The notes under the pieces are model-generated. The model made no database searches, had not been told where the DNA came from, and saw nothing but the letters and a program-made list of their open reading frames with translations. Shown piece by piece: positions 1,593 to 18,897 of a stretch of DNA of 38,652 nucleotides. The number at the start of each line of letters is the position of its first letter. Position 1 is the stretch's first letter. Both the position numbers and the translations under genes were made by a program. The stretch comes from Candidatus Omnitrophota bacterium (GTDB taxonomy: Bacteria; Omnitrophota; Gorgyraeia; Gorgyraeales; Gorgyraeaceae). The stretch lies in the NCBI GenBank assembly GCA_018814825.1, contig JAHIYJ010000037.1:1-38652 (forward strand), in the 5' to 3' direction.

Positions 1593-2924
1593 ATGATAGC
1601 GAAGACAAAAAAAGACGTACTGGCTCTAGTCAAAAAGCACGACATTAAATTTATAAAACTGTGGTTCGCGGATGTCCTGGGTTTTCAGAAGGGTATCGCC
1701 ATTACTAAACGTGAACTAGAGAAGGCCATTAGCGAAGGCATGGGTTTTGACGGCTCATCCATAGAGGGTTTCGCGCGCATTGAGGAAAGCGATATGGTGG
1801 CCATGCCGGACGCGTCAACATTTCAGTTGATTCCCTGGCGGACTGACAAAGAGAGTCTTTCAGCGAGGATGTTCTGCGATGTGGTGAAGCCCAACGGCAA
1901 GCCGTTTGAGGGGGATCCCAGGTATGTATTGAAGAAAAACCTGAAAAAAGCGAAAGAAATGGGTTTTGTTTACTATATAGGCCCTGAACTTGAATATTTT
2001 TATTTTGAGAACCCGAAAAATACCATAATCCTGGACAGGGGAGGATATTTTGACCTGACGCCGCTGGACGTGGCGCAGGACCTTAGGCGCGAGACAGTGG
2101 TCATGCTTGAGAAGATGGGCGTGAAGGTAGAATACAGCCATCATGAGGTGGCTACCTCGCAGCACGAGATAGACCTCAGGTATTGCGACGCGCTTACCAT
2201 GGCGGATAATGTAATGACCTATCGCATGGTAGTTAAGGAAGTCGCCAGGCGGCATGGTAAATATGCCACTTTTATGCCTAAACCCATCTATGGTATAAAT
2301 GGCAGTGGCATGCATGTCCACCAGTCGCTTTTTAAGGGCTCAAAGAACGCGTTTTTCAGCAAGACTGACAAGAGCCATCTCTCAGACATGGCCAAATATT
2401 TTGTAGCGGGTATCTTAAGGCATGTCCCTGAGATAACTACTGTAACAAACCAGTGGGTTAATTCCTATAAAAGGCTTATCCCGGGTTACGAGGCTCCGGT
2501 GTATATATGCTGGGCGCAGATGAACCGCTCTGCTCTCGTGAGGGTGCCTATGTATAAGCCCGGCAAGGAGAATGCTACCAGGATAGAGTTTCGCTCTCCT
2601 GACCCGGCAGCTAACCCGTATCTGGCTTTTTCTGTTATGCTGGCGGCCGGACTCGAGGGCATTAAAAAGAAATATAAGCTCCCTCGCCCGGCGGAAGATA
2701 ATATCTATAGAATGACAGAGGAAGAGCGCGCGAAAGCAGGCATAAGATCCCTGCCGGAAGATCTTTATGAGGCGATCAAGCTCACTGAAAAAAGCGAGCT
2801 TGTTAAAGAGGCCTTAGGAGACACTGTGTTCGAGTACTTTATACGCAACAAAAAGATGGAATGGGACGAATACAGATCCCAGATCTCCAGGTATGAATTA
2901 GATAAATACCTACCTATTCTATAA
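1593..2924 (+). CDS. glnA: Type I glutamine synthetase
   Basis: The 443-residue protein makes glutamine from glutamate, ammonia and ATP in the cytoplasm. Visible motifs include GFDGSSIEGFARIEESDM near the N-terminus, EYSHHEVATSQHEIDLRY, KPIYGINGSGMHVHQS (ATP/glutamate site) and RIEFRSPDPAANPYLAF. The length matches the shorter GSI-alpha class. The position equivalent to the adenylylated tyrosine of GSI-beta reads NIYRMTEEERA rather than NLYDLPPEE, so control by adenylylation is unlikely. An AGGAG element overlaps the end of queF and supports the ATG at 1593. The upstream ANTAR gene suggests RNA-level nitrogen control, which is inference. Confidence 0.97.
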   Translation: MIAKTKKDVLALVKKHDIKFIKLWFADVLGFQKGIAITKRELEKAISEGMGFDGSSIEGFARIEESDMVAMPDASTFQLIPWRTDKESLSARMFCDVVKPNGKPFEGDPRYVLKKNLKKAKEMGFVYYIGPELEYFYFENPKNTIILDRGGYFDLTPLDVAQDLRRETVVMLEKMGVKVEYSHHEVATSQHEIDLRYCDALTMADNVMTYRMVVKEVARRHGKYATFMPKPIYGINGSGMHVHQSLFKGSKNAFFSKTDKSHLSDMAKYFVAGILRHVPEITTVTNQWVNSYKRLIPGYEAPVYICWAQMNRSALVRVPMYKPGKENATRIEFRSPDPAANPYLAFSVMLAAGLEGIKKKYKLPRPAEDNIYRMTEEERAKAGIRSLPEDLYEAIKLTEKSELVKEALGDTVFEYFIRNKKMEWDEYRSQISRYELDKYLPIL

Positions 2925-3806: not shown

Positions 3807-3868
3807 ACTAGCATTAAATTTAAGGAACGAAGTGAACGCAAATCGTCGTGTCTTTTAAGGAGGTAGTT

Positions 3869-5206
3869 ATGCAGAAGAAAATAAAAGATTTTATGTCGAA
3901 GGTTATAGAAAAGAATCCGGGAGAGACTGAATTTCACCAGGCAGTACAGGAAGTAGTAGAGTCAGTAATGCCGTTCATTGAAAAAAATCCTAAATATCAG
4001 AATGCAAAGATCCTCGAGAGAATGGTCGAGCCGGAAAGAGTAGTGATGTTTAGAGTGCCATGGCAGAATGATAAAGGCGAGATTCAGGTAGATAGAGGAT
4101 TTCGCATAGAGATGAATAGCGCACTTGGTCCTTACAAAGGCGGGATCAGGTTCCATCCAAGCGTAAACCTCGGCATACTTAAATTTTTAGCATTCGAGCA
4201 AGTTTTCAAGAATAGCGTTACTACCTTACCTATGGGTGGTGGAAAAGGCGGCTCTGACTTTGACCCAAAGGGAAAATCAGACAATGAAGTAATGCGCTTC
4301 TGTCAAAGTTTTATGACAGAACTCCAGCGCCATATTGGACCAGACACAGATGTGCCTGCAGGAGATATAGGAGTAGGTGGAAGAGAAATAGGATATATGT
4401 TTGGCCAGTACAAGAGGCTTCGCAATGAATTTACAGGAGTTTTAACAGGCAAAGGACTAAACTGGGGCGGAAGTTTGATAAGGCCAGAAGCAACAGGCTA
4501 TGGCTGCGTATATTTTGCGCAGGAGATGTTAAAGACAAAAGGCGAATCTTTAAAAGGAAAGGTCTGCACGGTTTCAGGCTCTGGGAACGTTGCGCAGTAC
4601 ACCGTTGAGAAACTGCTCCAGTTAGGCGCAAAGTCAGTTACGCTTTCAGACTCGAATGGGTATATTTATGATCCTGATGGAATAAGCAAACAGAAGCTTG
4701 AATTTGTGATGGAACTAAAGAATGTACGCCGGGGGAGGATAAAAGAATACGCTGCAAAATACAATTGTAAATATGTAGAAGGAAGATGGCCGTGGGAGGT
4801 AAAATGCGATTGTGCATTTCCCTCTGCTACGCAGAATGAGATACACGATACCGATGCTAAAAGGCTGATTAAGAATGGCTGTATCCTGGTTGCTGAAGGG
4901 GCAAATATGCCTTCGATGCCAAAGGCAGTAGAGGTATTTTTGGATGCAAAGACACTTTATGCACCAGGTAAGGCGTCGAATGCAGGAGGGGTAGCCACAA
5001 GCGGATTTGAAATGTCGCAGAATAGCCAGAGATTGTCCTGGACGAGAGAAGAAGTAGATGAAAAATTGCGCCAGATTATGATAAAGATTCACGAAAGTTG
5101 TCTTAAATACGGAAAGAAGGGCAACTTTACAAATTATGTCGATGGAGCGAACCTCGCAGGCTTTGTAAAAGTAGCCGATGCAATGCTGGATCAGGGCTTG
5201 GTGTAA
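3869..5206 (+). CDS. gdhA: Glutamate dehydrogenase, hexameric NADP type
   Basis: The 445-residue enzyme interconverts 2-oxoglutarate plus ammonia and glutamate. Motifs include GPYKGGIRFHPSVNL, LPMGGGKGGSDFDPKGKS (catalytic lysine region), DTDVPAGDIGVGGREIGYM and a nucleotide-binding VSGSGNVAQYTVEKL. Length and N-terminus match the bacterial NADP-dependent class. I chose ATG 3869 rather than the ORF-track GTG 3848 because AAGGAGG (3857-3863) sits at ideal distance from it. The gene has its own promoter and a terminator in its leader. With glnA and the gltB-like gene it forms a local ammonia-assimilation set. Confidence 0.97.
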   Translation: MQKKIKDFMSKVIEKNPGETEFHQAVQEVVESVMPFIEKNPKYQNAKILERMVEPERVVMFRVPWQNDKGEIQVDRGFRIEMNSALGPYKGGIRFHPSVNLGILKFLAFEQVFKNSVTTLPMGGGKGGSDFDPKGKSDNEVMRFCQSFMTELQRHIGPDTDVPAGDIGVGGREIGYMFGQYKRLRNEFTGVLTGKGLNWGGSLIRPEATGYGCVYFAQEMLKTKGESLKGKVCTVSGSGNVAQYTVEKLLQLGAKSVTLSDSNGYIYDPDGISKQKLEFVMELKNVRRGRIKEYAAKYNCKYVEGRWPWEVKCDCAFPSATQNEIHDTDAKRLIKNGCILVAEGANMPSMPKAVEVFLDAKTLYAPGKASNAGGVATSGFEMSQNSQRLSWTREEVDEKLRQIMIKIHESCLKYGKKGNFTNYVDGANLAGFVKVADAMLDQGLV

Positions 5207-5462: not shown

Positions 5463-7052
5463 ATGAATTTACGGACACCAGGAGGGAATGACGCTACAAG
5501 GACTTTTAACCGGTCGAAAAATGTTGTGCCGACTTCAGGACTTTGCTCGAGATGCTTTGAGTCGTGCCGAGGAAACTGCGAGGTATTTAAGTCTTCTTTT
5601 AGGGGCAGGGAAGTCATATATCCGGGTCCTTTTGGCGAAATGACAGCGGGAGGAGATAAAGACTATCCTATAGATTATTCGCATTTGAATATACAAGGAT
5701 ACGCGATGGGTGCGCAGGGTCTACCAGAAGGCGTTGAAGGGAATTCTGATACAGCCACTTTTCCTATTGTAAACACAGAGACAGAGTATGGGTGGGGTAA
5801 AAAGGTTAAAATGAAATTACCTATCTTTACAGGCGCTCTGGGCTCGACAGAGATTGCCAGGAAGAATTGGGAACATTTTACTGTAGGGGCAGCTATCTCC
5901 GGTATAACAATCGTATGCGGAGAAAACGTGTGCGGCGTAGACCCTGCGTTAGAGTTGGATAAAAACGGGAAAATTACAAAATCCCCTGAAATGGACCGCC
6001 GCATAGAAGCATATAGGAGATTTCATGACGGCTATGGCGAAATCCTGGTCCAGATGAATGTAGAGGACACCCGTTTAGGGGTCGCAGAATATCTGCGCAA
6101 GAGACATGACCTTGAGACCATTGAGTTAAAATGGGGACAGGGCGCAAAGTGCATAGGAGGAGAAATAAAGGTAAAATCCCTGGAAGAAGCATTGACACTC
6201 AAGAAACGCGGATATATTGTGACGCCAGACCCTACGATAAAATCAAACCAAGAGGCGTTTAAACAAGGCGCGATAAAAGAGTTTGAGAGACATTCAAGAT
6301 TGGGCTTTGTCTCAGAGGAGGGTTTTATAAAAGAGATAAAACGCCTGAGGGATCTTGGTTACAAGAGGATTACCCTTAAGACAGGGGCGTATTCCATGAG
6401 AGAGCTCGCTATGGCAATAAAATACGCGTCCATGACCAAGATAGACTTATTGACGATAGACGGTGCGCCAGGCGGGACAGGTATGAGCCCATGGAGGATG
6501 ATGCAGGAATGGGGCATCCCTACGTTCTATATCGAAGCATTAATGTATGAATTCTGCGAAAAACTGGCCAATAAAGGTATGAGGGTTCCTGATATTGCTA
6601 TCGCTGGCGGTTTTTCTCTTGAAGACCATGTCTTTAAGGCAATAGCGATGGGAGCGCCTTATGTAAAGGCAGTTTGCATGGGAAGGGCACTTATGATACC
6701 TGGTTTTGTAGGTAAAAACATAGGAGAATGGCTCAAGAATAAAAACCTGCCTCCTACAGTGAAAGAGTTCGGGACGAAACCTGAAGAGATATTCGTCTGC
6801 TACGAGGAGCTTTCAGAGAAATACGGTAAAGACATGAAAGATATCCCGTTAGGAGCAGTTGCTATATATACCTTTACGCAAAGGATCAGAGTAGGGCTAC
6901 AGCAGATCATGGCTGGCTCGAGGAATTTTAGATTGAGCACCATATCAAGAAAAGACCTCATGTGCCTTACGGAAGAGGCCGCGAGAGTTTCAGATATTCC
7001 CTATTTGATGGACGCGTCAAGGGAAGAGGCGGAAAAGGTTCTTGAAGGGTAA
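5463..7052 (+). CDS. GltB-type FMN-binding glutamate synthase domain protein
   Basis: This 529-residue protein corresponds to the central and FMN-binding synthase region of glutamate synthase, without the N-terminal glutamine amidotransferase domain. It has a Cys-rich start (GLCSRCFESCRGNC, residues about 27-40) that could bind an Fe-S cluster. It also has GPFGEMTAGGDKD, LGYKRITLKTGAYSMRELAMA and the FMN-barrel signature LLTIDGAPGGTGMSPWRMM followed by IAIAGGFSLEDHVFKAIAMGA. Stand-alone forms like this occur in archaea and anaerobic bacteria. No gltD or amidotransferase subunit is encoded nearby, so whether it makes glutamate is uncertain. AAGGAGG precedes the ATG. It has its own promoter and terminator-rich leader. 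Confidence 0.87.
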   Translation: MNLRTPGGNDATRTFNRSKNVVPTSGLCSRCFESCRGNCEVFKSSFRGREVIYPGPFGEMTAGGDKDYPIDYSHLNIQGYAMGAQGLPEGVEGNSDTATFPIVNTETEYGWGKKVKMKLPIFTGALGSTEIARKNWEHFTVGAAISGITIVCGENVCGVDPALELDKNGKITKSPEMDRRIEAYRRFHDGYGEILVQMNVEDTRLGVAEYLRKRHDLETIELKWGQGAKCIGGEIKVKSLEEALTLKKRGYIVTPDPTIKSNQEAFKQGAIKEFERHSRLGFVSEEGFIKEIKRLRDLGYKRITLKTGAYSMRELAMAIKYASMTKIDLLTIDGAPGGTGMSPWRMMQEWGIPTFYIEALMYEFCEKLANKGMRVPDIAIAGGFSLEDHVFKAIAMGAPYVKAVCMGRALMIPGFVGKNIGEWLKNKNLPPTVKEFGTKPEEIFVCYEELSEKYGKDMKDIPLGAVAIYTFTQRIRVGLQQIMAGSRNFRLSTISRKDLMCLTEEAARVSDIPYLMDASREEAEKVLEG

Positions 7053-7153: not shown

Positions 7154-10100
7154 GTGGCAAGAATAAAAGACATAGATAAAGTTCTGATCATAGGTTCAGG
7201 CCCGATCGTGATAGGCCAGGCGTGCGAGTTTGACTATTCAGGCACCCAGGCCTGTAAGGCCCTGCGCGCCGCAGGTTATAAGATTATCCTTGTAAACTCC
7301 AATCCAGCCACTATCATGACAGACCCTGGCATGGCAGATGTTACCTATATAGAGCCTTTGAACGTAGATAGACTCACCGCGATTATCGAGAAAGAGAGGC
7401 CTGATGCGCTCTTGCCGAATCTCGGTGGCCAGACCGGGTTAAATCTTTCTTCCGAATTATTTAAAAAAGGCATTCTTAAAAAATTTGGCTGCAGGATCAT
7501 AGGCGTGCAGGCAGATGCCATTGAAAGGGGTGAAGACAGGCTCGCTTTTAAGGAGACAATGAAAAAACTAGATATACCTCTCCCAAAGAGCGAACTGGCA
7601 TATTCAGTGGAAGAGGCAATGAAGATAGCCCATGATTTAGGCTATCCTGTTATTGTCAGACCTGCTTACACAATGGGCGGGACAGGCGGCGGAGCTGTAT
7701 TTAATGACGAGGAACTCGAAACAATAGCCTCGCGAGGCATATCAGCCAGTCTTATCGGGCAGATCCTCATTGAGGAATCTGTCTTGGGATGGGAAGAACT
7801 GGAACTTGAGGTCGTAAGAGACGCTGAATCAAATAAGATCACGGTGTGTTTTATAGAAAATATCGACCCCATGGGAGTCCATACAGGCGACTCATTCTGC
7901 GCCGCTCCTATGCTAACTGTGAAGCCAGAACTTCAAAAACTACTTCAGGATTATTCCTATAGAATAGTGGATGCGATAGGGGTTATAGGCGGCACAAATA
8001 TACAATTCGCGCATAATCCTGAAGATGACAAGGTAGTAGCCATTGAGATAAATCCCAGAACCTCACGCTCCTCTGCCCTGGCATCAAAGGCAACAGGATT
8101 TCCGATTGCGTATGTATCATCCAGATTAGCAGGTGGAGACCTTTTAAGGGACATCCAGTACTGGAGGGACGGGACTCTTGACAAATACACGCCTTCAGGA
8201 GATTACGTTGTCATAAAATTCTCACGCTGGGCGTTTGAGAAATTCAGGCAGATAAAAGACCAGCTAGGCACGCAGATGAGGGCAGTGGGCGAGGTGATGA
8301 GTATCGGCAAGACCTACAAAGAGGCTTTCCAGAAGGCAATAAGGAGTCTTGAGCAGGGCCGTTACGGCCTTGGCTTTGCCAAGAATTTCAACGAACTCTC
8401 TTTAGATGAGCTGAGAAAGCTCCTCGCGTATCCTACTTCAGAGCGCCAGTTTATAATGTACGAGGCGCTTCGTAAAGGCATGGATATCGACGAGATGTAT
8501 GACAAAACAAGGATACACAGATATTTTATAACCCAAATGGAAGAGCTGGTTGATCGTGAAGAAGAGATTCTTAAATATAAAGGCAGGAAACTGCCTGATG
8601 ACATGCTGATAAAGGCAAAGGAAGACGGTTTTTCAGACAGGTATCTCGGCCAGCTGCTTGGCGTGGCTGAAAAAGAGATTAGAGGACGCCGTATCAAGCT
8701 CGGCAAAGTCCAGGCATGGGACGCAGTGCCTGTAAGCGGGTCAGACGCGGCGTATTATTATTCGACTTACAATACGCCTGACAAGGTAAGTGCGTCTCCT
8801 AATAAAAAGATCATGATACTTGGGGGCGGGCCCAACAGGATAGGCCAGGGCATAGAATTCGACTATTGCTGCTGTCATGCCGCGTTTGCGTTGAGGGATA
8901 TGGGGTATGAGAGCATAATGGTAAATTGTAATCCAGAAACCGTTTCTACGGATTATGACACCTCAAATAAGCTCTATTTCGAGCCTTTGACCGTCGAGGA
9001 CGTCCTGAGTATTTACAATAAAGAAAAACCGGTTGGCGTGATAGTGCAGTTCGGCGGGCAGACACCTTTGAATATAGCGAAGGAACTCGAAGAGGCAGGG
9101 GTAAAGATACTCGGCACATCTGTTGAAAGTATAGACCTCGCTGAGGATAGAGAACGATTTGCTAAGGTTATGAAAAAACTAGAGATACCCCAGCCGGAAA
9201 GCGGGATGGCAAGCACGTTAGAAGAAGCCTTAAAAATAGCCGACAGGATAGGATATCCTCTTATGGTAAGGCCCTCTTATGTCTTGGGCGGGAGGGCAAT
9301 GGAGATTGTATATGACGAAGAGATGCTCAAGAGTTATGTAAAGGTAGCTGTTGACGTATCTCCGGACAGACCTATCCTCATAGATAAATTTTTAGAAGAC
9401 GCGATCGAGGCCGAGGCAGATGCCGTATCTGACGGTAAAGATGTCTTTATCCCTTCCATCATGGAGCACATAGAGGAGGCCGGCATACATTCAGGCGACT
9501 CTGCCTGTGTTATCCCGCCAAAGACCATACCAAAAAAGCACATCGATACGATAAAAGAATATACAGAAAAAATCGCGAAGGAGCTGAAGGTCTGCGGGCT
9601 TATGAATATGCAGTACGCGATCGCTGATGATACCGTCTATGTCCTGGAGGCTAATCCAAGGGCGTCAAGGACCGTCCCGATTGTATCAAAGGTGTGCGGT
9701 TTATCCATGGCCAGGATAGCCACTGAGCTTATGCTTGGTAAAAAAATCAGTGATATGAATCTGAGACCCAGGAAATACAACCATTTTGGGGTAAAGGAAT
9801 CGGTGTTCCCCTTTTATATGTTCCAGGAAGTGGATCCGGTGCTCGGGCCTGAGATGCGTTCGACAGGAGAAGTTATGGGGATAGCCGATTCGTTCGGCCT
9901 TGCGTATTTCAAGGCGCAGGAAGCCGCCAATGCAAAACTGCCCACGGAAGGCACTGTCCTTATAACAGTCGCTGACAAGGACAAGAAAAAGAATATTGCC
10001 GAGGCCGCAAGGAGATTGCGTGAGATAGGTTTCAGGATCTTCGCTACAGAAGGCACAAAGAAATTCCTCGACAAACACAACGTTGAGGCCGAATTGATTA

Positions 10101-10354
10101 AGAAGATGCATGAAGGAAGGCCGAATATAATAGACGCCATCAACAATAAAGAAATACAGCTTATCGTCAATACGCCTGTCGGAAAATACGCGGCGTACGA
10201 CGATTCGTATATAAGAAAGAGCGCCATAAAGTATAAGATACCTTATATTACGACTCCGGCGGCAGCAATCGCAGTAGCGGAAGGGATCAAGTCATATCTG
10301 GAGAACAAAGGAGACGTCAAATCTCTGCAGGAATACCACAACGAGATCACCTGA
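7154..10354 (+). CDS. carB: Carbamoyl-phosphate synthase large subunit
   Basis: At 1066 residues this is a full-length CarB, which makes carbamoyl phosphate from bicarbonate, ammonia (delivered by CarA) and two ATP for arginine and pyrimidine synthesis. Both internally homologous ATP-grasp halves are present: the first opens VLIIGSGPIVIGQACEFDYSG, the second opens IMILGGGPNRIGQGIEFDYCC. The C-terminal allosteric MGS-like domain is visible (EGTVLITVADKDKKK ... VNTPVGKYAAYDD). The start is GTG 7154, behind AAAGGAGGGG. carA is not adjacent. The genes that follow (DUF1846, PurF-like) are close enough to share its transcript. Confidence 0.97.
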   Translation: MARIKDIDKVLIIGSGPIVIGQACEFDYSGTQACKALRAAGYKIILVNSNPATIMTDPGMADVTYIEPLNVDRLTAIIEKERPDALLPNLGGQTGLNLSSELFKKGILKKFGCRIIGVQADAIERGEDRLAFKETMKKLDIPLPKSELAYSVEEAMKIAHDLGYPVIVRPAYTMGGTGGGAVFNDEELETIASRGISASLIGQILIEESVLGWEELELEVVRDAESNKITVCFIENIDPMGVHTGDSFCAAPMLTVKPELQKLLQDYSYRIVDAIGVIGGTNIQFAHNPEDDKVVAIEINPRTSRSSALASKATGFPIAYVSSRLAGGDLLRDIQYWRDGTLDKYTPSGDYVVIKFSRWAFEKFRQIKDQLGTQMRAVGEVMSIGKTYKEAFQKAIRSLEQGRYGLGFAKNFNELSLDELRKLLAYPTSERQFIMYEALRKGMDIDEMYDKTRIHRYFITQMEELVDREEEILKYKGRKLPDDMLIKAKEDGFSDRYLGQLLGVAEKEIRGRRIKLGKVQAWDAVPVSGSDAAYYYSTYNTPDKVSASPNKKIMILGGGPNRIGQGIEFDYCCCHAAFALRDMGYESIMVNCNPETVSTDYDTSNKLYFEPLTVEDVLSIYNKEKPVGVIVQFGGQTPLNIAKELEEAGVKILGTSVESIDLAEDRERFAKVMKKLEIPQPESGMASTLEEALKIADRIGYPLMVRPSYVLGGRAMEIVYDEEMLKSYVKVAVDVSPDRPILIDKFLEDAIEAEADAVSDGKDVFIPSIMEHIEEAGIHSGDSACVIPPKTIPKKHIDTIKEYTEKIAKELKVCGLMNMQYAIADDTVYVLEANPRASRTVPIVSKVCGLSMARIATELMLGKKISDMNLRPRKYNHFGVKESVFPFYMFQEVDPVLGPEMRSTGEVMGIADSFGLAYFKAQEAANAKLPTEGTVLITVADKDKKKNIAEAARRLREIGFRIFATEGTKKFLDKHNVEAELIKKMHEGRPNIIDAINNKEIQLIVNTPVGKYAAYDDSYIRKSAIKYKIPYITTPAAAIAVAEGIKSYLENKGDVKSLQEYHNEIT

Positions 10355-10370
10355 TGTCGCTGGACCAACA

Positions 10371-11915
10371 GTGAAAATTATGTTTAAACGAGTCGTGACC
10401 AAAAAAATCAGCTTTGACAACGAAAAATATCTTTCCGAGCAGACAAAAGAGATCCTAAGCAGGGTCAAGAAATTCGATAATAAGCTCTACCTCGAGTTCG
10501 GCGGAAAGATATGCTTTGATTATCATGCGGCAAGGGTTCTCCCTGGATATGACCCTAATGTAAAGATGAGGCTCCTGGAAAAACTCAAAAAACACGCCGA
10601 GATAGTAATAAGTGTCTATGCGAAAGACATTGAGCAGGGCAGAGTACGGGGGGATTACGGCATAACTTATGACCTTGCCACCTTGAAGCTCATAGATGAC
10701 TTAAAGGCCTGGAAACTCGACGTGGCTGCGGTTGTCCTGACAAGGTTCAGCAATGAGCCGTCTGCCTTGAAATTCAAAAGGAGATTAGAAAGGCTGGGCA
10801 TTAAAGTTTACAAGCATGTAAAGATAGAAGGATACCCGCATGATGTGGAAAAAATCGTGAGCGCCGACGGCTATGGCAGGAATGAGTATATAGAGACGAA
10901 AAAACCCATTATTATAGTAACGGCACCTGGCCCTGGCAGCGGCAAACTCGCGACGTGCCTGTCTCAGCTCTACCATGACCATAAGAAAGGCATTAATTCC
11001 GGCTACGCGAAGTTTGAGACATTCCCTATATGGAACCTGCTCCTGAATCACCCCGTGAATATAGCGTATGAGGCGGCGACAGTGGATCTAGCGGATTTTA
11101 ACCTGATAGACCCGTTCCACCTTGAGAAATACAAAAAAGAATCGATAAATTACAACCGCGACGTGGAGGCCTTTCCTATCCTGAAAAATATTATACACAG
11201 GATAGCGGGTTCCAAAGACAGTTATTATAAGTCTCCCACTGATATGGGGGTTAACAGGGCCGGCTTTGGTATTGTGGATGACAAGGGCGCGAGAGAGGCT
11301 GCGAAACAGGAGATCATCCGCAGGTTTTTCCGTCATAACCTCGAGTTCGCGACAGGAAGCGGCACAAAAGAGGAGCTGGAAAGGGCAGAGGCTATTATGG
11401 ACAAGGCAGGCGTTAAACCTGAGGACAGGTCGACTGTCCTTCCTGCCAGGAAAGCCGCGGAAGAGTGCAAGAAAAAGAAGAAAGGTAACAAGGGTTATTA
11501 CTGTGGGGCCGCCATAGAGTTGAATGGCAGCAGGATAATAACAGGGAAAAATTCCACACTGATGCACGCGGCGTCGAGCGCCGTAATAAACGCCATAAAA
11601 TACATAGCGGGGATAGACGACGGCGTCCATATCTTAAAACCCGAGGTGATGGACGACCTCTCGAGCTTAAAAAAAGAAACGCTGAGCATGACGTCAGAAA
11701 GCCTTACCCTGGATGAGATATTAGTCGCGCTTTCCATAAGCGCGCATACGGATAGAAACGCTAAGAGCGCCTTGCTGAAACTCAAGGAATTAAGGGGATG
11801 CGAGCTGCATTCCACGCATCTGCCCACGCCGGGCGATGAAGCAGGCCTGAGAAAACTGGGCATAAATTTTACGACAGACGCAATCCCATCATCAAGCCTG
11901 TTTTTTAATTATTAA
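10371..11915 (+). CDS. DUF1846 (UPF0371) family protein
   Basis: This is a 514-residue member of the DUF1846 family, recognised by its opening (SFDNEKYLSEQTKEILSR, LYLEFGGKICFDYHAARVLPGY) and its length. A P-loop-like motif, APGPGSGK (residues about 186-193), suggests nucleotide binding, and MHAASSAVINAIKYIAGI lies in the C-terminal part. The family's biochemical role is not established to my knowledge, so I assign none. The track start is GTG 10371, with ATG 10380 as an alternative; neither has a convincing Shine-Dalgarno. The degenerate PurF homologue starts 11 bases after its stop, suggesting a joint function. Confidence 0.85.
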   Translation: MKIMFKRVVTKKISFDNEKYLSEQTKEILSRVKKFDNKLYLEFGGKICFDYHAARVLPGYDPNVKMRLLEKLKKHAEIVISVYAKDIEQGRVRGDYGITYDLATLKLIDDLKAWKLDVAAVVLTRFSNEPSALKFKRRLERLGIKVYKHVKIEGYPHDVEKIVSADGYGRNEYIETKKPIIIVTAPGPGSGKLATCLSQLYHDHKKGINSGYAKFETFPIWNLLLNHPVNIAYEAATVDLADFNLIDPFHLEKYKKESINYNRDVEAFPILKNIIHRIAGSKDSYYKSPTDMGVNRAGFGIVDDKGAREAAKQEIIRRFFRHNLEFATGSGTKEELERAEAIMDKAGVKPEDRSTVLPARKAAEECKKKKKGNKGYYCGAAIELNGSRIITGKNSTLMHAASSAVINAIKYIAGIDDGVHILKPEVMDDLSSLKKETLSMTSESLTLDEILVALSISAHTDRNAKSALLKLKELRGCELHSTHLPTPGDEAGLRKLGINFTTDAIPSSSLFFNY

Positions 11916-11926
11916 GGGGGTTATCA

Positions 11927-13348
11927 ATGAGCGGAGTATTTGGAGCGGTATCGCAGAAAGACTGTACGGTAGATCTATTTTATGGGGTTGATTACCAGAC
12001 TCATCTTGGGACAGAGTACGGGGGGATCGCTGTCCTGAGCGGCAAGAGGATATACAGACAGATACATGATATATCTCAGAGCCAGTTTAAGTCAAAATTC
12101 TATGAGGATTACAAAAAGTTTGAGGGTAAATACGGGATTGGAGCGATCAGCGATTCTGATGCGCAGCCAATGTTCCTTAACGCGAAATTCGGCTCATTCG
12201 CGATATGTATGGCGGGCCTTATTGAGAATACAGGGGAGCTTATCAAAGAATTGCATAAAAGAGGACATTCCTTCAGCGAGACAGAGGACGGTTCTGCCAA
12301 CAGTGTCGAGGTAGTGGCAAAGCTTATAAGCGAGGGCGAGGATTTTGTAAGCGGGATAGAGTATGTATTCGATAAAATCATTGGTTCTTGCTCGCTCCTT
12401 TTATTATGTAAAGACGGGATATACGCTGCGAGAGACAGGTTCGGATATACTGCCCTAGCGATAGGGAAAAGAGGCAGGGATTATGCTGTTGCTTCAGAGA
12501 CATGCGCTTTCCCTAACACCGGTTTCACGGTAGAAAAATTTCTCATGCCAGGCGAGATAGTCCTTATGAACGAAGACGGGCTGAAACAGATAAGGGGAAA
12601 ACGGGATGTAAACCAGATATGCTCATTTTTATGGATATATACAGGTTTTCCGGCTTCTACTTATGAGAATGTCAGTGTTGAGTCTGTTAGAGAGAGATGC
12701 GGAGCGGCCCTGGCGAAACATGATAAAGACATACAGGTGGACGTTGTCTCCGGCGTGCCGGATTCGGGGATTGCCCATGCGATAGGATACTCGATGGAGT
12801 CAAAGAAGCCATACAGGAGGCCTCTTGTAAAATATACGCCCGGCTATGGCAGGAGTTACACGCCTCCCGTCCAGGAGATAAGGGATCGGGTGGCCAGGAT
12901 GAAACTTATCCCGATAAAGGACATCATAGATGGCAACAGGATTGTCGTATGTGAGGATTCAATAGTAAGAGGCACGCAGTTAAAGAATTTCACAGTGCAG
13001 AAGCTATGGGACAATGGCGCTAAGGAGATACACGTAAGGCCTGCCTGCCCGCCGCTTATGTTCCCGTGCAGGTTTTGCCTGTCTACCAAGTCTATTCATG
13101 AACTTGCAGCGAGAAAGGCCATAAAAGATATTGAAGGGAAAGACATAGAAGATGTTTCTGAATATACAGACCATACTACAGAGAAATACAAAAAGATGGT
13201 CAAATGGATAGAGAAAGATATTGACGTCACGACCCTCCGCTATCAAACTCTCGATGACATGATAAAGGCCATTGGCCTCCCCAGGGAGAGGCTCTGCACC
13301 TATTGCTGGAACGGCGAGTGTCTCGCTAAAGATAACTTACTCTCTTAA
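11927..13348 (+). CDS. PurF-like phosphoribosyltransferase with degenerate glutaminase site
   Basis: The 473-residue protein has the PurF layout: an N-terminal Ntn-type glutaminase domain and a C-terminal phosphoribosyltransferase domain. The PRTase part looks intact: GVPDSGIAHAIGYS, the flexible loop KYTPGYGRSYTPP and the PRPP loop VVCEDSIVRGT (residues 340-350). Cysteines at about 232, 381, 457 and 460 align with the 4Fe-4S ligands of Bacillus-type PurF. The glutaminase site does not look intact: the sequence begins MSGVFGA where PurF has the nucleophile CGVFG, the HRGQ motif reads HLGT, and the conserved NG reads AG. It may use free ammonia or do something else. An AAGGGGG ribosome-binding site precedes the ATG. 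Confidence 0.85.
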   Translation: MSGVFGAVSQKDCTVDLFYGVDYQTHLGTEYGGIAVLSGKRIYRQIHDISQSQFKSKFYEDYKKFEGKYGIGAISDSDAQPMFLNAKFGSFAICMAGLIENTGELIKELHKRGHSFSETEDGSANSVEVVAKLISEGEDFVSGIEYVFDKIIGSCSLLLLCKDGIYAARDRFGYTALAIGKRGRDYAVASETCAFPNTGFTVEKFLMPGEIVLMNEDGLKQIRGKRDVNQICSFLWIYTGFPASTYENVSVESVRERCGAALAKHDKDIQVDVVSGVPDSGIAHAIGYSMESKKPYRRPLVKYTPGYGRSYTPPVQEIRDRVARMKLIPIKDIIDGNRIVVCEDSIVRGTQLKNFTVQKLWDNGAKEIHVRPACPPLMFPCRFCLSTKSIHELAARKAIKDIEGKDIEDVSEYTDHTTEKYKKMVKWIEKDIDVTTLRYQTLDDMIKAIGLPRERLCTYCWNGECLAKDNLLS

Positions 13349-14837: not shown

Positions 14838-16718
14838 ATGAAAAAGTCTTATGATGTCATAGTTATTGGCGCTGGGCATGCCGGGATAGAAGCATCTCTG
14901 GCTTCAAGCAGGATGGGCATGGCAACGCTGCTTGTTACCATGGACCTTGATAAAATAGGGTATATGTCCTGCAATCCCGCTATAGGCGGTATAGGCAAGG
15001 GCCAGCTCGTAAAGGAAATAGACGCGCTTGGCGGGGAAATGGCAAAGGCAACGGACTATAGCGCAATACAGTTTCGGGTCCTGAACAGGAGTAAGGGGCC
15101 AGCAGTGTGGTCTTCCAGGGCCCAGGTGGACAGGGAGCTGTATATAAAGTATATGTGGGATATTGTCAAAAGAACTCATGGCCTGGAAACGCTAGAGGGC
15201 TTGGTTTCCGATATAATAGTAAAAAACAGAAAGGCGCGCGGCGTCAGACTATCTGACAATACTGTAATAAAATCCAGAGCTGTCATAATAACGACAGGCA
15301 CTTTCCTGAACGGTGTGATACATATCGGGCTCAGCCATTTTCCGGGCGGCAGGTTGGGCGATCCGCCCTCAATCGGGCTTTCAGAAAGACTCAAATGCCT
15401 GGGATTCAGGGTAACAAGGCTAAAGACAGGTACAACGCCGCGGCTGGATTCGAAGACGATTAATTTTTCAAAACTGAGGAAGCAGCCCGGAGATAAGCCT
15501 CCTGTGCCTTTTTCATTTTCAACAAAGACAATCAAAAGAAGGCAGCTACCTTGTTACCTGACTTACACAAACAAAAAGACACATGATATTATACGCGACA
15601 ACCTTGATCGCTCGCCGCTTTACACGGGTAAGATACAATCCATCGGCGTGAGATACTGCCCTTCAATAGAAGACAAGATCGTGAGATTCAGGGACAGGGA
15701 CAGGCACCAGGTTTTTCTTGAGCCGGAAGGCCTGGATACTAGCCAGTATTACCCTAACGGCGTGTCAACCAGCCTGCCTATTGACGTTCAGCTGAAGATG
15801 ATAAGGAGTATAGAAGGACTTGAGGAGTCTGAAATAACCACGCCAGGTTATGGTATAGAGTATGATTTTATTGACCCTACTCAGCTTAGAGCCACGCTTG
15901 AGACAAAACTGATAGAAAATCTCTATAACTCGGGCCAGATAAACGGCACAACCGGTTATGAAGAAGCGGCGGCACAGGGTTTCATGGCAGGCGCGAACGC
16001 GGCCCTTAAATTAAAAGGTAAAGACCCTCTTGTGCTTGACCGCTCAGAGGCTTATATAGGGGTGTTAATAGACGACCTTGTCACAAAAGGCACAAACGAG
16101 CCGTACAGGATGTTTACCTCGCGCGTAGAATATAGACTCATCCTTAGAGAAGACAACGCTGACCTGAGACTTACGGAGACAGGGTATAATCTAGGCATTG
16201 TTGACAGTAAGCAATACGGGAAAGTAATGCTGAAAAAAAAGAGAATCCGTATGGGCATGGAAAATCTCATCGGCACAAGGCTGTATCCTGACAGGGGCAC
16301 AAACATGAAACTGGCGAGACGCAAGATCCCGCCGATAAGCAACGTAACTAACTTGCGGGATTTACTGAGGAGACCACAGGTAAATTTTGACAAACTGAAA
16401 GGGCTTGTCGGGCAAAGAAGGCCTTTGACTGACAGCGAAGCCAGGCAGGTTGAGATAGAAGTAAAATACAGAGGTTTTATAGACAGGCAGTTAAGGGAAA
16501 TAGAGAATTTCAAAAGGATAGAGCGGATAAAGATGCCGCAGGGTTTCAGTTTCGATAAGATCCCCGGCCTTTCCAGAGAGATTATCGAAAAACTTTCCGC
16601 GGCAAGGCCGTCGAACCTGGGGCAGGCGTCCAGGATCTCAGGCGTAACGCCAGTGGCCATATCTATCCTGATGATATACCTGAAAAAATGGAAAACGGAA
16701 AACTCATTAAAAAACTGA
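14838..16718 (+). CDS. mnmG: MnmG (GidA), tRNA wobble-uridine modification flavoprotein
   Basis: The 626-residue protein is the FAD subunit that, with MnmE, installs the carboxymethylaminomethyl (or related) group at C5 of wobble U34 in tRNAs. Motifs: the FAD fold DVIVIGAGHAGIEASLASSRMG, SCNPAIGGIGKGQLVKEIDALGG, TGTFLNGVIHIGLSHFPGGR, and the family signatures GVRYCPSIEDKIVRF and LEPEGLDTSQYYPNG. Full length for the family. The promoter is so close to the ATG that the message is probably leaderless. The 3' end overlaps the QueG-like gene by 31 bases, linking two apparent tRNA-modification genes. Confidence 0.97.
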   Translation: MKKSYDVIVIGAGHAGIEASLASSRMGMATLLVTMDLDKIGYMSCNPAIGGIGKGQLVKEIDALGGEMAKATDYSAIQFRVLNRSKGPAVWSSRAQVDRELYIKYMWDIVKRTHGLETLEGLVSDIIVKNRKARGVRLSDNTVIKSRAVIITTGTFLNGVIHIGLSHFPGGRLGDPPSIGLSERLKCLGFRVTRLKTGTTPRLDSKTINFSKLRKQPGDKPPVPFSFSTKTIKRRQLPCYLTYTNKKTHDIIRDNLDRSPLYTGKIQSIGVRYCPSIEDKIVRFRDRDRHQVFLEPEGLDTSQYYPNGVSTSLPIDVQLKMIRSIEGLEESEITTPGYGIEYDFIDPTQLRATLETKLIENLYNSGQINGTTGYEEAAAQGFMAGANAALKLKGKDPLVLDRSEAYIGVLIDDLVTKGTNEPYRMFTSRVEYRLILREDNADLRLTETGYNLGIVDSKQYGKVMLKKKRIRMGMENLIGTRLYPDRGTNMKLARRKIPPISNVTNLRDLLRRPQVNFDKLKGLVGQRRPLTDSEARQVEIEVKYRGFIDRQLREIENFKRIERIKMPQGFSFDKIPGLSREIIEKLSAARPSNLGQASRISGVTPVAISILMIYLKKWKTENSLKN

Positions 16719-17359
16719 AGTCGCTAGCCTTTGATTCAGGCGCGGCGCTGTTCGGCGTAGCGGATATAACGGCCGTAAAAAAAGACTTTCATTTTTCAGA
16801 TGCAATTTTGAAAGATTTAGACTATGCTATATCTATAGGCATTAGACTTTCTGATCCGATATTAGACGAGATCAAGGATGCACCTACCAAGATATACTAT
16901 CACCATTACCGTCAGGCGAATATAGCGCTTGACCACATGGCGTTCAGGCTGAGTGGCCTTATCCAGTCCAGGGGATACAGGGCTCTCCCGGCCCCGGCCT
17001 CTCAGATTATAGACTGGGAGAAACAAAAAGGGCACCTTTCGCATAAAAAAATCGGGGAGCTTGCCGGTCTCGGGTTTATAGGCAGAAATAACCTTCTGGT
17101 AAATCCTGATCTTGGTTCAAGATTTCGTCTGGTTACGATTTTAACAGACGCCCCTTTAAAGCCAGATAAGCCTCTGGGCTTGGATTGCGGCGGGTGCAGG
17201 GCCTGCGTGGACATCTGTCCGGCTGGAGCAATAAAAGAAAAAAAAGAAGACTTTGACCATATCAAATGTTACGAGAAACTAAAGGAATTCAGGGACAAAA
17301 GGATAGTCGACCAGTTTATATGCGGTGTATGCGTTAAAGCGTGCAGACCCAGCAAATGA
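16688..17359 (+). CDS. QueG-like (COG1600) double 4Fe-4S protein
   Basis: This 223-residue protein resembles epoxyqueuosine reductase QueG: ELAGLGFIGRNNLLVNPDLGSRFRLVTILTDAPL followed by two cysteine clusters, CGGCRACVDICPAGAI and CGVCVKACR. QueG reduces epoxyqueuosine to queuosine with cobalamin. The protein is much shorter than typical QueG (about 340-380 residues), and the DTAPLLER-type stretch carrying the catalytic aspartate reads IIDWEKQKGHLSHKK instead, so it may be a paralogue with a different substrate. It overlaps mnmG by 31 bases and guaA by 4 (ATGA), indicating one operon. Confidence 0.75.
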   Translation: MENGKLIKKLKSLAFDSGAALFGVADITAVKKDFHFSDAILKDLDYAISIGIRLSDPILDEIKDAPTKIYYHHYRQANIALDHMAFRLSGLIQSRGYRALPAPASQIIDWEKQKGHLSHKKIGELAGLGFIGRNNLLVNPDLGSRFRLVTILTDAPLKPDKPLGLDCGGCRACVDICPAGAIKEKKEDFDHIKCYEKLKEFRDKRIVDQFICGVCVKACRPSK

Positions 17360-18897
17360 AAAAAGACACGGTAGTTATATTGGATTTTGGGGCGCAGTAT
17401 AATCAGCTTATCGCGAGGCGCGTAAGGGAGAGTAGCGTCTACTGTGTTCTCCTGCCTTACAATGTTTCCGTAGCCAGGGTCAAATCCCTGAGGCCAAAGG
17501 CCATAATACTGACGGGTGGGCCGGCAAGCGTGCATAAAAAAGGCGCCCCGAAATGCGCTAAAGAGATTTTTGAGCTTGGCGTGCCTGTCCTGGGGATATG
17601 CTATGGCATGCAGCTCATGGGTCATATATTGAGAGGCAAGGTCGGCCCGACGCGGAGAAGAGAATACGGCCACGCGGAATTAATCATCGATAAAAAAGAC
17701 AGGCTCTTCTCGGGCTGCGGGAAGAAAGAAAACGTCTGGATGAGCCACGGCGATCAGGTCCTTAGGCTGCCGGACGGTTTTATCAGACTGGCGCACACGA
17801 AGAACAGCAGGATAGCCAGTATGTATCATCCGGTAAAAAAGTTTTACGGCGTCCAGTTTCACCCTGAAGTGGTTCATACGCCGAAAGGCATGAGGATATT
17901 TAAAAATTTCCTGTACGGAGTCTGCGGCTTCAAGCCCGAATGGACCATGAAATCTTTTATCCATGAGGCGGTGAAAAACATAAGAACACAGGTCGGCAGA
18001 AGTCGTGTGGTCCTCGGCCTGAGCGGAGGCGTGGATTCTTCCGTGGCCGCGGTGTTATTGAGTAAGGCGATCGGGAAAAGGCTCGAATGTATCTTCGTGG
18101 ATAACGGCCTTTTGAGAAAGCTCGAGAGGCAGTACGTCGCTGATACCTTCAAGAGGCACTTTCACATGAACCTACATGTCATCGATGCTGAAAAACGTTT
18201 TCTGAGTAAATTGAGAGGAGTTACGGATCCGGAGAGAAAACGTAAGATTATAGGTAAAGAATTTATAAAGGTGTTTGAGGAAAAGGCCAAAAAACTCGGC
18301 AGAGTGGAATTTTTAGGCCAGGGCACCATTTATCCGGATGTTATTGAGAGCGTGTCAGCCAAAGGCGGGCCGTCGAGCACTATAAAGTCCCACCATAACG
18401 TTGGTGGGCTTCCTAAAAAGATGGGACTCAGGCTTGTGGAACCCCTGAAAGACCTCTTCAAGGATGAAGTGAGAAAGCTGGGTAGGGAGCTCGGGATTGG
18501 CGCCAAGTTGATTGACAGGCAGCCGTTTCCTGGCCCTGGCCTCGCTGTCAGGATAATAGGAGATATTACTAAAAAGCGCCTTGATGTCTTGCGGGAAGCG
18601 GATATGATAGTCCAGGAAGAGATGAAAAAATATGGAGGCTATAAAAATATCTGGCAGTCATTCGCTGTCCTTTTGCCCGTAAAAAGCGTGGGCGTGATGG
18701 GAGACGAGAGGACATATGAGAATACTTGCGCTATCAGGGCCGTGACAAGTCTTGACGCGATGACAGCTGACTGGGCTAAGATCCCTTATGATATATTAGG
18801 CAGGATATCCAACCGCATCATAAACGAAGTCAATGGCATTAACCGTGTCGCGTACGATATAAGTTCCAAGCCCCCCGCGACAATAGAATGGGAATAA
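17356..18897 (+). CDS. guaA: GMP synthase, glutamine-hydrolysing
   Basis: The protein (513 residues from ATG 17356) converts XMP to GMP using glutamine and ATP. The class I amidotransferase domain shows the nucleophile elbow GICYGMQLMG and the His-Glu pair in GVQFHPEVVH. The ATP pyrophosphatase domain opens LGLSGGVDSSVAAVLL, and the C-terminal dimer domain contains DRQPFPGPGLAVRI. I prefer ATG 17356 over GTG 17341 because MKKDTVVILDFGAQYNQLI is the usual N-terminus and it overlaps the preceding stop as ATGA. The convergent lpxB stop is only 2 bases beyond the guaA stop, with no terminator between. Confidence 0.96.
   Translation: MKKDTVVILDFGAQYNQLIARRVRESSVYCVLLPYNVSVARVKSLRPKAIILTGGPASVHKKGAPKCAKEIFELGVPVLGICYGMQLMGHILRGKVGPTRRREYGHAELIIDKKDRLFSGCGKKENVWMSHGDQVLRLPDGFIRLAHTKNSRIASMYHPVKKFYGVQFHPEVVHTPKGMRIFKNFLYGVCGFKPEWTMKSFIHEAVKNIRTQVGRSRVVLGLSGGVDSSVAAVLLSKAIGKRLECIFVDNGLLRKLERQYVADTFKRHFHMNLHVIDAEKRFLSKLRGVTDPERKRKIIGKEFIKVFEEKAKKLGRVEFLGQGTIYPDVIESVSAKGGPSSTIKSHHNVGGLPKKMGLRLVEPLKDLFKDEVRKLGRELGIGAKLIDRQPFPGPGLAVRIIGDITKKRLDVLREADMIVQEEMKKYGGYKNIWQSFAVLLPVKSVGVMGDERTYENTCAIRAVTSLDAMTADWAKIPYDILGRISNRIINEVNGINRVAYDISSKPPATIEWE

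Follow-up and report, generated by a model that had tools for sequence, protein, structure and literature searches.

The PurF-like gene P, carried by a Candidatus Omnitrophota bacterium, encodes a protein in which the key residues of the glutaminase half are gone and those of the phosphoribosyltransferase half are kept. The observations reported here concern lost and conserved residues, monophyly, and the order, co-occurrence and absence of genes, and they make it probable that P is a PRPP aminotransferase taking free ammonia, one member of an ammonia-fed group of nucleotide enzymes. In textbook accounts, the committed steps of purine and pyrimidine synthesis draw their nitrogen from glutamine. 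If the proposal is true, the joint occurrence of P with lost or dead CarA and PurQ would represent a coordinated reversal to ammonia in uncultured bacteria.

The window, that is the whole stretch of 38,652 nucleotides analysed, is contig G000:C87 of a draft genome of 1.3 Mb, 92% complete. A check of its open reading frames found P intact, exactly where an earlier note on this DNA had placed it (Table 1). The protein is matched across its full length by B. subtilis PurF (1ao0, E=8.5e-56) in a sequence search, and the best Foldseek matches of its predicted fold (model pLDDT 73.6) are all PurF, with 1ao0 at the top (E=1.4e-33). The purF equivalog model TIGR01134 gives it 221.8 bits, below the cut-off of 350. 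The sequence aaggggg, which resembles a ribosome-binding site, lies 5' of the ATG, and the open frame upstream reads YLRGLS back to a stop, so that a hidden Cys start is excluded. With no in-frame upstream Cys and the same changes recurring in about 95 other sequences, a sequencing or start-site artefact is excluded, in agreement with the earlier note, which had argued against sequencing error. A decaying pseudogene is equally excluded by full-length conservation and a dN/dS of about 0.06 in the dead domain. Purifying selection acts on this domain (dN/dS of 0.058 in comparison with the nearest relative; dS is saturated in other pairs), and 66 of 230 columns there are invariant.

Table 1. Features of the window discussed in the text
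Feature	Position	Strand	Support
Glutamine synthetase, type I	1593..2924	+	
NADP-specific glutamate dehydrogenase, ammonia assimilation	3848..5206	+	
Glutamate-synthase-like protein, Glu_synthase domain	5463..7052	+	
carB, carB2 clade (CPSase large subunit); checked catalytic residues kept; Phe at E. coli Ser233	7154..10354	+	
DUF1846 (UPF0371), 514 aa, 11 bases upstream of P	10371..11915	+	
P, PurF-like protein, 473 aa, predicted glutaminase-dead	11927..13348	+	sequence, predicted fold, family alignment
Ser2 codon replacing Cys1 nucleophile	11930..11932	+	Ser 95/96 relatives; Cys 43/43 canonical PurF
HLG replacing HRG (Arg26 of E. coli PurF)	12002..12010	+	Leu 90/96, Met 6/96; Arg 43/43 canonical
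GAISDSDAQ; canonical GHxRYsTtGss..Q loop with Arg73/Tyr74 deleted	12140..12166	+	gap 96/96
AG replacing NG (Asn101, oxyanion hole)	12212..12217	+	variable in family: N 35, A 16, T 16, S 16 of 96
Fe-S cysteine C232	12620..12622	+	all four Cys 96/96
PPi loop PDSG, intact	12758..12769	+	96/96
Flexible loop K302-K326, catalytic K/R/Q/K kept, tip rewritten (KYTPGYGRSYTPP)	12830..12904	+	alignment
PRPP loop CEDSIVRGTQ	12950..12979	+	DSIVRG kept; E. coli Thr374 to Gln 96/96
Other three Fe-S cysteines of P	13067-13069, 13295-13297, 13304-13306	+	all four Cys 96/96
guaA (GMP synthase), glutaminase domain kept	17341..18897	+	

The state of the glutaminase half was read from an alignment of 96 P sequences with 43 canonical PurF, numbered after mature E. 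coli PurF, whose sequence was included. Cys1, Arg26, Arg73, Asn101 and Asp127 are present in all 43 canonical proteins. P lacks the N-terminal Cys nucleophile, and among the glutamine-binding and oxyanion residues Arg26 is Leu or Met, Arg73 is deleted, Asn101 is variable and Asp127 is lost, being Ser in the window protein. From the window sequence the earlier note had reported MSGVFG in place of CGVFG, HLG in place of HRG and AG in place of NG. The Ser is shared by 95 of the 96 sequences, and the Arg of HRG is replaced in all 96, by Leu in 90 and by Met in 6. The third is real in the window protein and the weakest of the three; on its own it is weak evidence, because Asn is retained at position 101 in 35 of the 96 sequences, and Gly102 is invariant in the family although Asn101 varies. 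The dismantling of the glutaminase was therefore correctly recognised and even understated, the deletion of the Arg73/Tyr74 loop and the loss of Asp127 having been missed. Judging from these residues, we consider it confirmed that P no longer has a working glutaminase.

Serine can act as the nucleophile in other Ntn hydrolases, and Ser2 is nearly invariant in the family, as would be expected if it were a working nucleophile and P had kept amidotransferase activity towards glutamine or some other amide. The loss of Arg26, Arg73, Asn101 and Asp127 renders this highly improbable, as does the Ser variant of E. coli PurF, for which Brown et al. 2011 (PMC3261824) give no detectable glutamine activity. 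According to the same paper, replacing Cys1 of E. coli PurF by Ser or Ala leaves its ammonia activity in place (PMC3261824).

The PRPP half has been kept. The PRPP loop DSxVRGT, the PPi loop and the flexible-loop Lys326, Arg332 and Lys349 (E. coli numbers) are found in all 96 P sequences, together with four cysteines of the B. subtilis type that, as read from sequence, would bind a putative 4Fe-4S cluster. What the earlier note had said of intact PRPP and flexible loops and Fe-S cysteines extends to the whole set of relatives, except that the flexible loop has a rewritten tip. The phosphoribosyltransferase half is probably catalytically competent, a judgement made as part of the whole ammonia proposal. 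Two other uses of this half can be envisaged. The rewritten tip, itself largely invariant across the family, and the replacement of Thr374 by Gln could mean another acceptor; along with 64 positions conserved in P and not in canonical PurF, they would suit a PRPP-dependent phosphoribosyltransferase for another nucleophile, possibly tied to carbamoyl phosphate or to the DUF1846 product, which would be no purine enzyme. Alternatively, P could be a catalytically idle sensor of PRPP or nucleotides that acts as partner or regulator for PurF or the nitrogen-assimilation cluster, but the invariance of Lys326, Arg332, Lys349 and of the PPi and PRPP loops exceeds the needs of a sensor.

In the tree, P forms a single clade apart from canonical PurF (SH-aLRT 100). 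The phylogeny suggested by the earlier note hence unites the Ser2/HLG sequences, among which AG is not constant. Beside the clade stand two PurF-like intermediates, from G031 (L157, G031:C99) and G100 (L158, G100:C43), with Cys1 and HRG intact, the Arg73 loop gone and PMSG replacing PDSG; their genes adjoin a CarA whose triad is gone, and they are possibly an evolutionary step towards P. When 84,980 species were scanned, each represented by one genome, at least 576 confirmed P-like stretches were found, and the titles of the best 80 of these matches name Omnitrophota, Planctomycetota/Phycisphaerae, Elusimicrobia, Auribacterota, WOR-3 and NPL-UPA2. Among the matches listed, the public-record relatives of P are mostly titled Candidatus Omnitrophota.

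A search of the window genome, 92% complete, found no second PurF, its two weak matches being GlmS- and AsnB-like proteins with a normal N-terminal Cys. The earlier note had proposed looking there for a canonical purF; none was found, and purM, purD, purC, a long purL and purQ are all present. Canonical purF was not found either in the related genera G001, G003, G005 and G006, which keep purM, purD and purC. In a class-level sample of 99 genomes, P occurs in 56, and 40 of these have canonical PurF too: P can stand alone, yet often does not. Accordingly, P as a universal replacement of PurF is unsupported, and the loss of canonical purF is not significantly tied to P (16/56 genomes with P against 9/43 without, p=0.49; p=0.19 in near-complete genomes). 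Complete purine auxotrophy is ruled out for most of the P genomes tested, in which purM, purD and purC are present; G047 keeps P, and these three genes were not found in it. Elsewhere, a purQ-purM-purD operon (L144, G020:C29) lies in a genome 96% complete where neither canonical purF nor P was found.

The frequent company of canonical PurF, sometimes within one operon (purL-purQ-P-purF-purM), would agree with a regulatory role as well as with a transferase acting on another nucleophile. The regulator is quite unlikely, since neither the window genome nor the related genera with a retained downstream pathway have any PurF homologue besides P. A transferase outside purine synthesis would be favoured by the retention of P in G047, and by an association of P with DUF1846 and carB2/carB3 that is stronger than that with purF loss. 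G047 is however weak evidence, because G096 retains canonical PurF without detectable purC or purM. P also sits within purine operons beside purF, purM and purQ, and several genomes with purD, purM and purC have no PurF homologue other than P; we regard such a transferase as unlikely.

Gene neighbourhoods place P amid nitrogen and nucleotide metabolism. The window has the order glnA, gdhA, a gene for a Glu_synthase-domain protein, carB, DUF1846, P, a flavoprotein gene, mnmG, a gene for a short QueG-like protein and guaA. The QueG-like protein (16688-17359, 223 aa) matches only part of the QueG model and adjoins mnmG in related loci too, and a GAF-ANTAR regulator and a QueF-like protein (403-1116 and 1195-1590) precede glnA where the nitrogen cluster begins. 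Among 80 named P loci, carB is nearby in 26 and DUF1846 in 23, and others have gltB/gltD-like genes, gdh, glnA, guaA, purM or canonical purF. The order purF-purM-P occurs in several Planctomycetota-titled records, and G055 and G048 have purL-purQ-P-purF-purM-purD. In G080, from the same family as G055, the operon reads purB-purL-P-purM-purD with P in the slot of purF, and neither canonical purF nor purQ was found in that genome. A TIGR00730-family (LOG-like) protein or look-alike follows purL in the purine operon at L145:5250-5897, L151:3806-4456 and L152:3851-4528.

Because the carB adjoining P has no carA alongside, a search was made for other glutaminase subunits, and carA was not found in the window genome. 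Losses were counted in genomes at least 90% complete, 48 with P and 35 without, most of the genomes counted being incomplete MAGs. The carA gene is absent from 22/48 genomes with P and 3/35 without (p=2e-4), purQ from 20/48 and 4/35 (p=3e-3) and both together from 17/48 and 1/35 (p=3e-4), p-values that serve as guides only because the tests were unplanned and related genomes are not independent. The double losses among P genomes spread over 13 GTDB families, and in the sole P-less case, G007, the contig breaks off at DUF1846, where P would follow. Outside the 99-genome sample, P occurs in CP070728 and CP070830, Planctomycetota records with chromosome titles, whose genomes lack carA. The switch away from glutaminases is partial, since PurQ, alongside a long PurL, is retained in the window genome, as are the glutaminases of GuaA, GlmS and AsnB.

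Other glutaminase subunits have apparently died in place. Eleven divergent CarA proteins, mostly in genomes with P or a P relative (examples are G033, G047, G053, G075, G080, L083 and L103, and also G031 and G100 with the intermediate PurF), have the nucleophile Cys changed to Ser in seven cases and to Gly in four, and their catalytic His and Glu are gone. All six reference CarA have the Cys and five have all three triad residues, the remaining one being truncated. The carB adjoining P or DUF1846 belongs to a clade of its own, carB2, with each catalytic residue checked intact. Its diagnostic changes include Ser233 to Phe in 27/27 sequences, beside Cys232 (E. coli numbers), which we take to correspond to Cys648 of human CPS1. 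In that enzyme, Cys648, Ala667 and Ala729 were described as an ammonia gate (PMC4655335). Either carB2 or the type with a dead CarA (carB3) is present in 53/56 P genomes against 5/43 without P. The purL genes from seven loci likewise form one clade (support 100), and six of these loci belong to genomes without PurQ; G084 has carB2, the PurQ-less-type purL and DUF1846 adjacent, and G041 has carB2, this purL and canonical purF together. In one genus, carA-carB1-carB2-DUF1846-P occur in tandem (L209 in G002:C45, L037, L039), and related genera retain only carB2. In G055, G074, G096, G049 and G030, carB is split into two half-length genes or pieces, the first half adjoining carA.

In the mechanism we propose, P would bind PRPP, its flexible loop would close and dissolved ammonia would attack C1 of PRPP to give 5-phosphoribosylamine, the first purine intermediate, which would pass to PurD; the glutaminase domain would persist as a structural relic. 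The carB2 clade would run on ammonia without CarA, or carB would do so with a catalytically dead CarA, and the purL clade would run without PurQ in part of the genomes, DUF1846 going along with this ammonia-fed set. P would have replaced canonical PurF in some genomes and would work beside it in others, presumably under plentiful ammonia. The NH3 substrate, the phosphoribosylamine product and an ammonia-rich anaerobic setting are thus what we infer.

Several lines of evidence argue for ammonia as the substrate. Glutaminase residues are gone while the PRPP machinery is kept throughout the family, P is the sole PurF homologue in several genomes keeping purD, purM and purC, and it occupies the purF slot in the G080 operon. 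The carA and purQ losses concentrate in P genomes and the triad-less CarA in genomes with P or a P relative, carB2 (checked catalytic residues intact) and the PurQ-less purL form their own clades, and P has glnA, gdhA and the gene for a Glu_synthase-domain protein as company. The transfer of free ammonia to PRPP, suggested by the earlier note as one possibility, thereby receives substantial indirect support. Counting against it are the lack of a significant link to purF loss, the 40 genomes that keep PurF, the partial nature of the switch and G047. On a wider scale, we find the evidence evenly balanced as to whether several candidate phyla carry a recurring ammonia-fed set (P for PurF, CarB2 without CarA or CarB3 with dead CarA, PurL2 without PurQ, and DUF1846) that would uncouple the committed purine and pyrimidine steps from glutamine.

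The DUF1846 neighbour is a full-length member of its family (PF08903, 537 bits), to which the known DUF1846/UPF0371 proteins SPD_0310 and DIP2346 also belong. Its coupling to P, pointed out in the earlier note, recurs well beyond the window: 48 of the 99 genomes have both genes, 8 only P, 5 only DUF1846 and 38 neither (p=5e-14), so that 13 are discordant. The two are often in the same genome without adjacency, and DUF1846 adjoins canonical purF in G023, G057, G082 and G034 and lies beside purF or purL in G046 and G084. Foldseek with its fold gave meaningful scores from DUF1846 entries only and no functional clue, and no tie to nucleotide synthesis was found in the literature searched. The pneumococcal homologue SPD_0310 of S. 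pneumoniae is reported to bind hemin (PMC9238395), and DUF1846 is essential in C. difficile (PMC12548448); its association with P provides this family with a metabolic context.

P resembles canonical PurF (TIGR01134) in its two domains, its PRPP, PPi and flexible loops, its four Fe-S cysteines and its linkage to purine genes. It differs in the missing glutaminase residues, a score well under the model cut-off, a separate clade and the rewritten flexible-loop tip. P genes are easily taken for ordinary purF in annotation, and genomes without canonical purF may appear falsely auxotrophic.

The idea of an ammonia-dependent PurF is not new, because Brown et al. 2011 proposed such a role for PurF' of Crenarchaeota, described in their paper as a PurF paralogue that lacks the N-terminal Cys and is encoded close to purF and purine genes (PMC3261824). 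P fits that description on both points: it too lacks the N-terminal Cys, and it lies near purF or purine genes in other genomes, with guaA and carB nearby in the window. Compared by description, the position of Ser in P is often Ala or Val in PurF'; P differs further in being bacterial and in its link to DUF1846, and that description mentions no concerted loss of CarA and PurQ for PurF'. No published account of a bacterial P family, or of a concerted loss of the CarA, PurQ and PurF glutaminases, was found in the open-access literature. What appears new is the large bacterial family, the complete pattern of its losses and its association with missing carA and purQ, dead CarA, the carB and purL clades and DUF1846, and P offers a bacterial system in which the old crenarchaeal hypothesis becomes testable.

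CPS-I offers a parallel in logic. Human CPS1 is ammonia-specific and cannot use glutamine, which its authors attribute to the change of the catalytic Cys to Ser (PMC4655335). As proposed for P, a glutamine-dependent ancestor became ammonia-dependent and retained a dead glutaminase domain with a Cys to Ser change. CPS-I is a different enzyme with a different fold, an analogue and no relative of P, and its closer parallel is found in the dead CarA proteins described above, seven of which have the same replacement of Cys by Ser.
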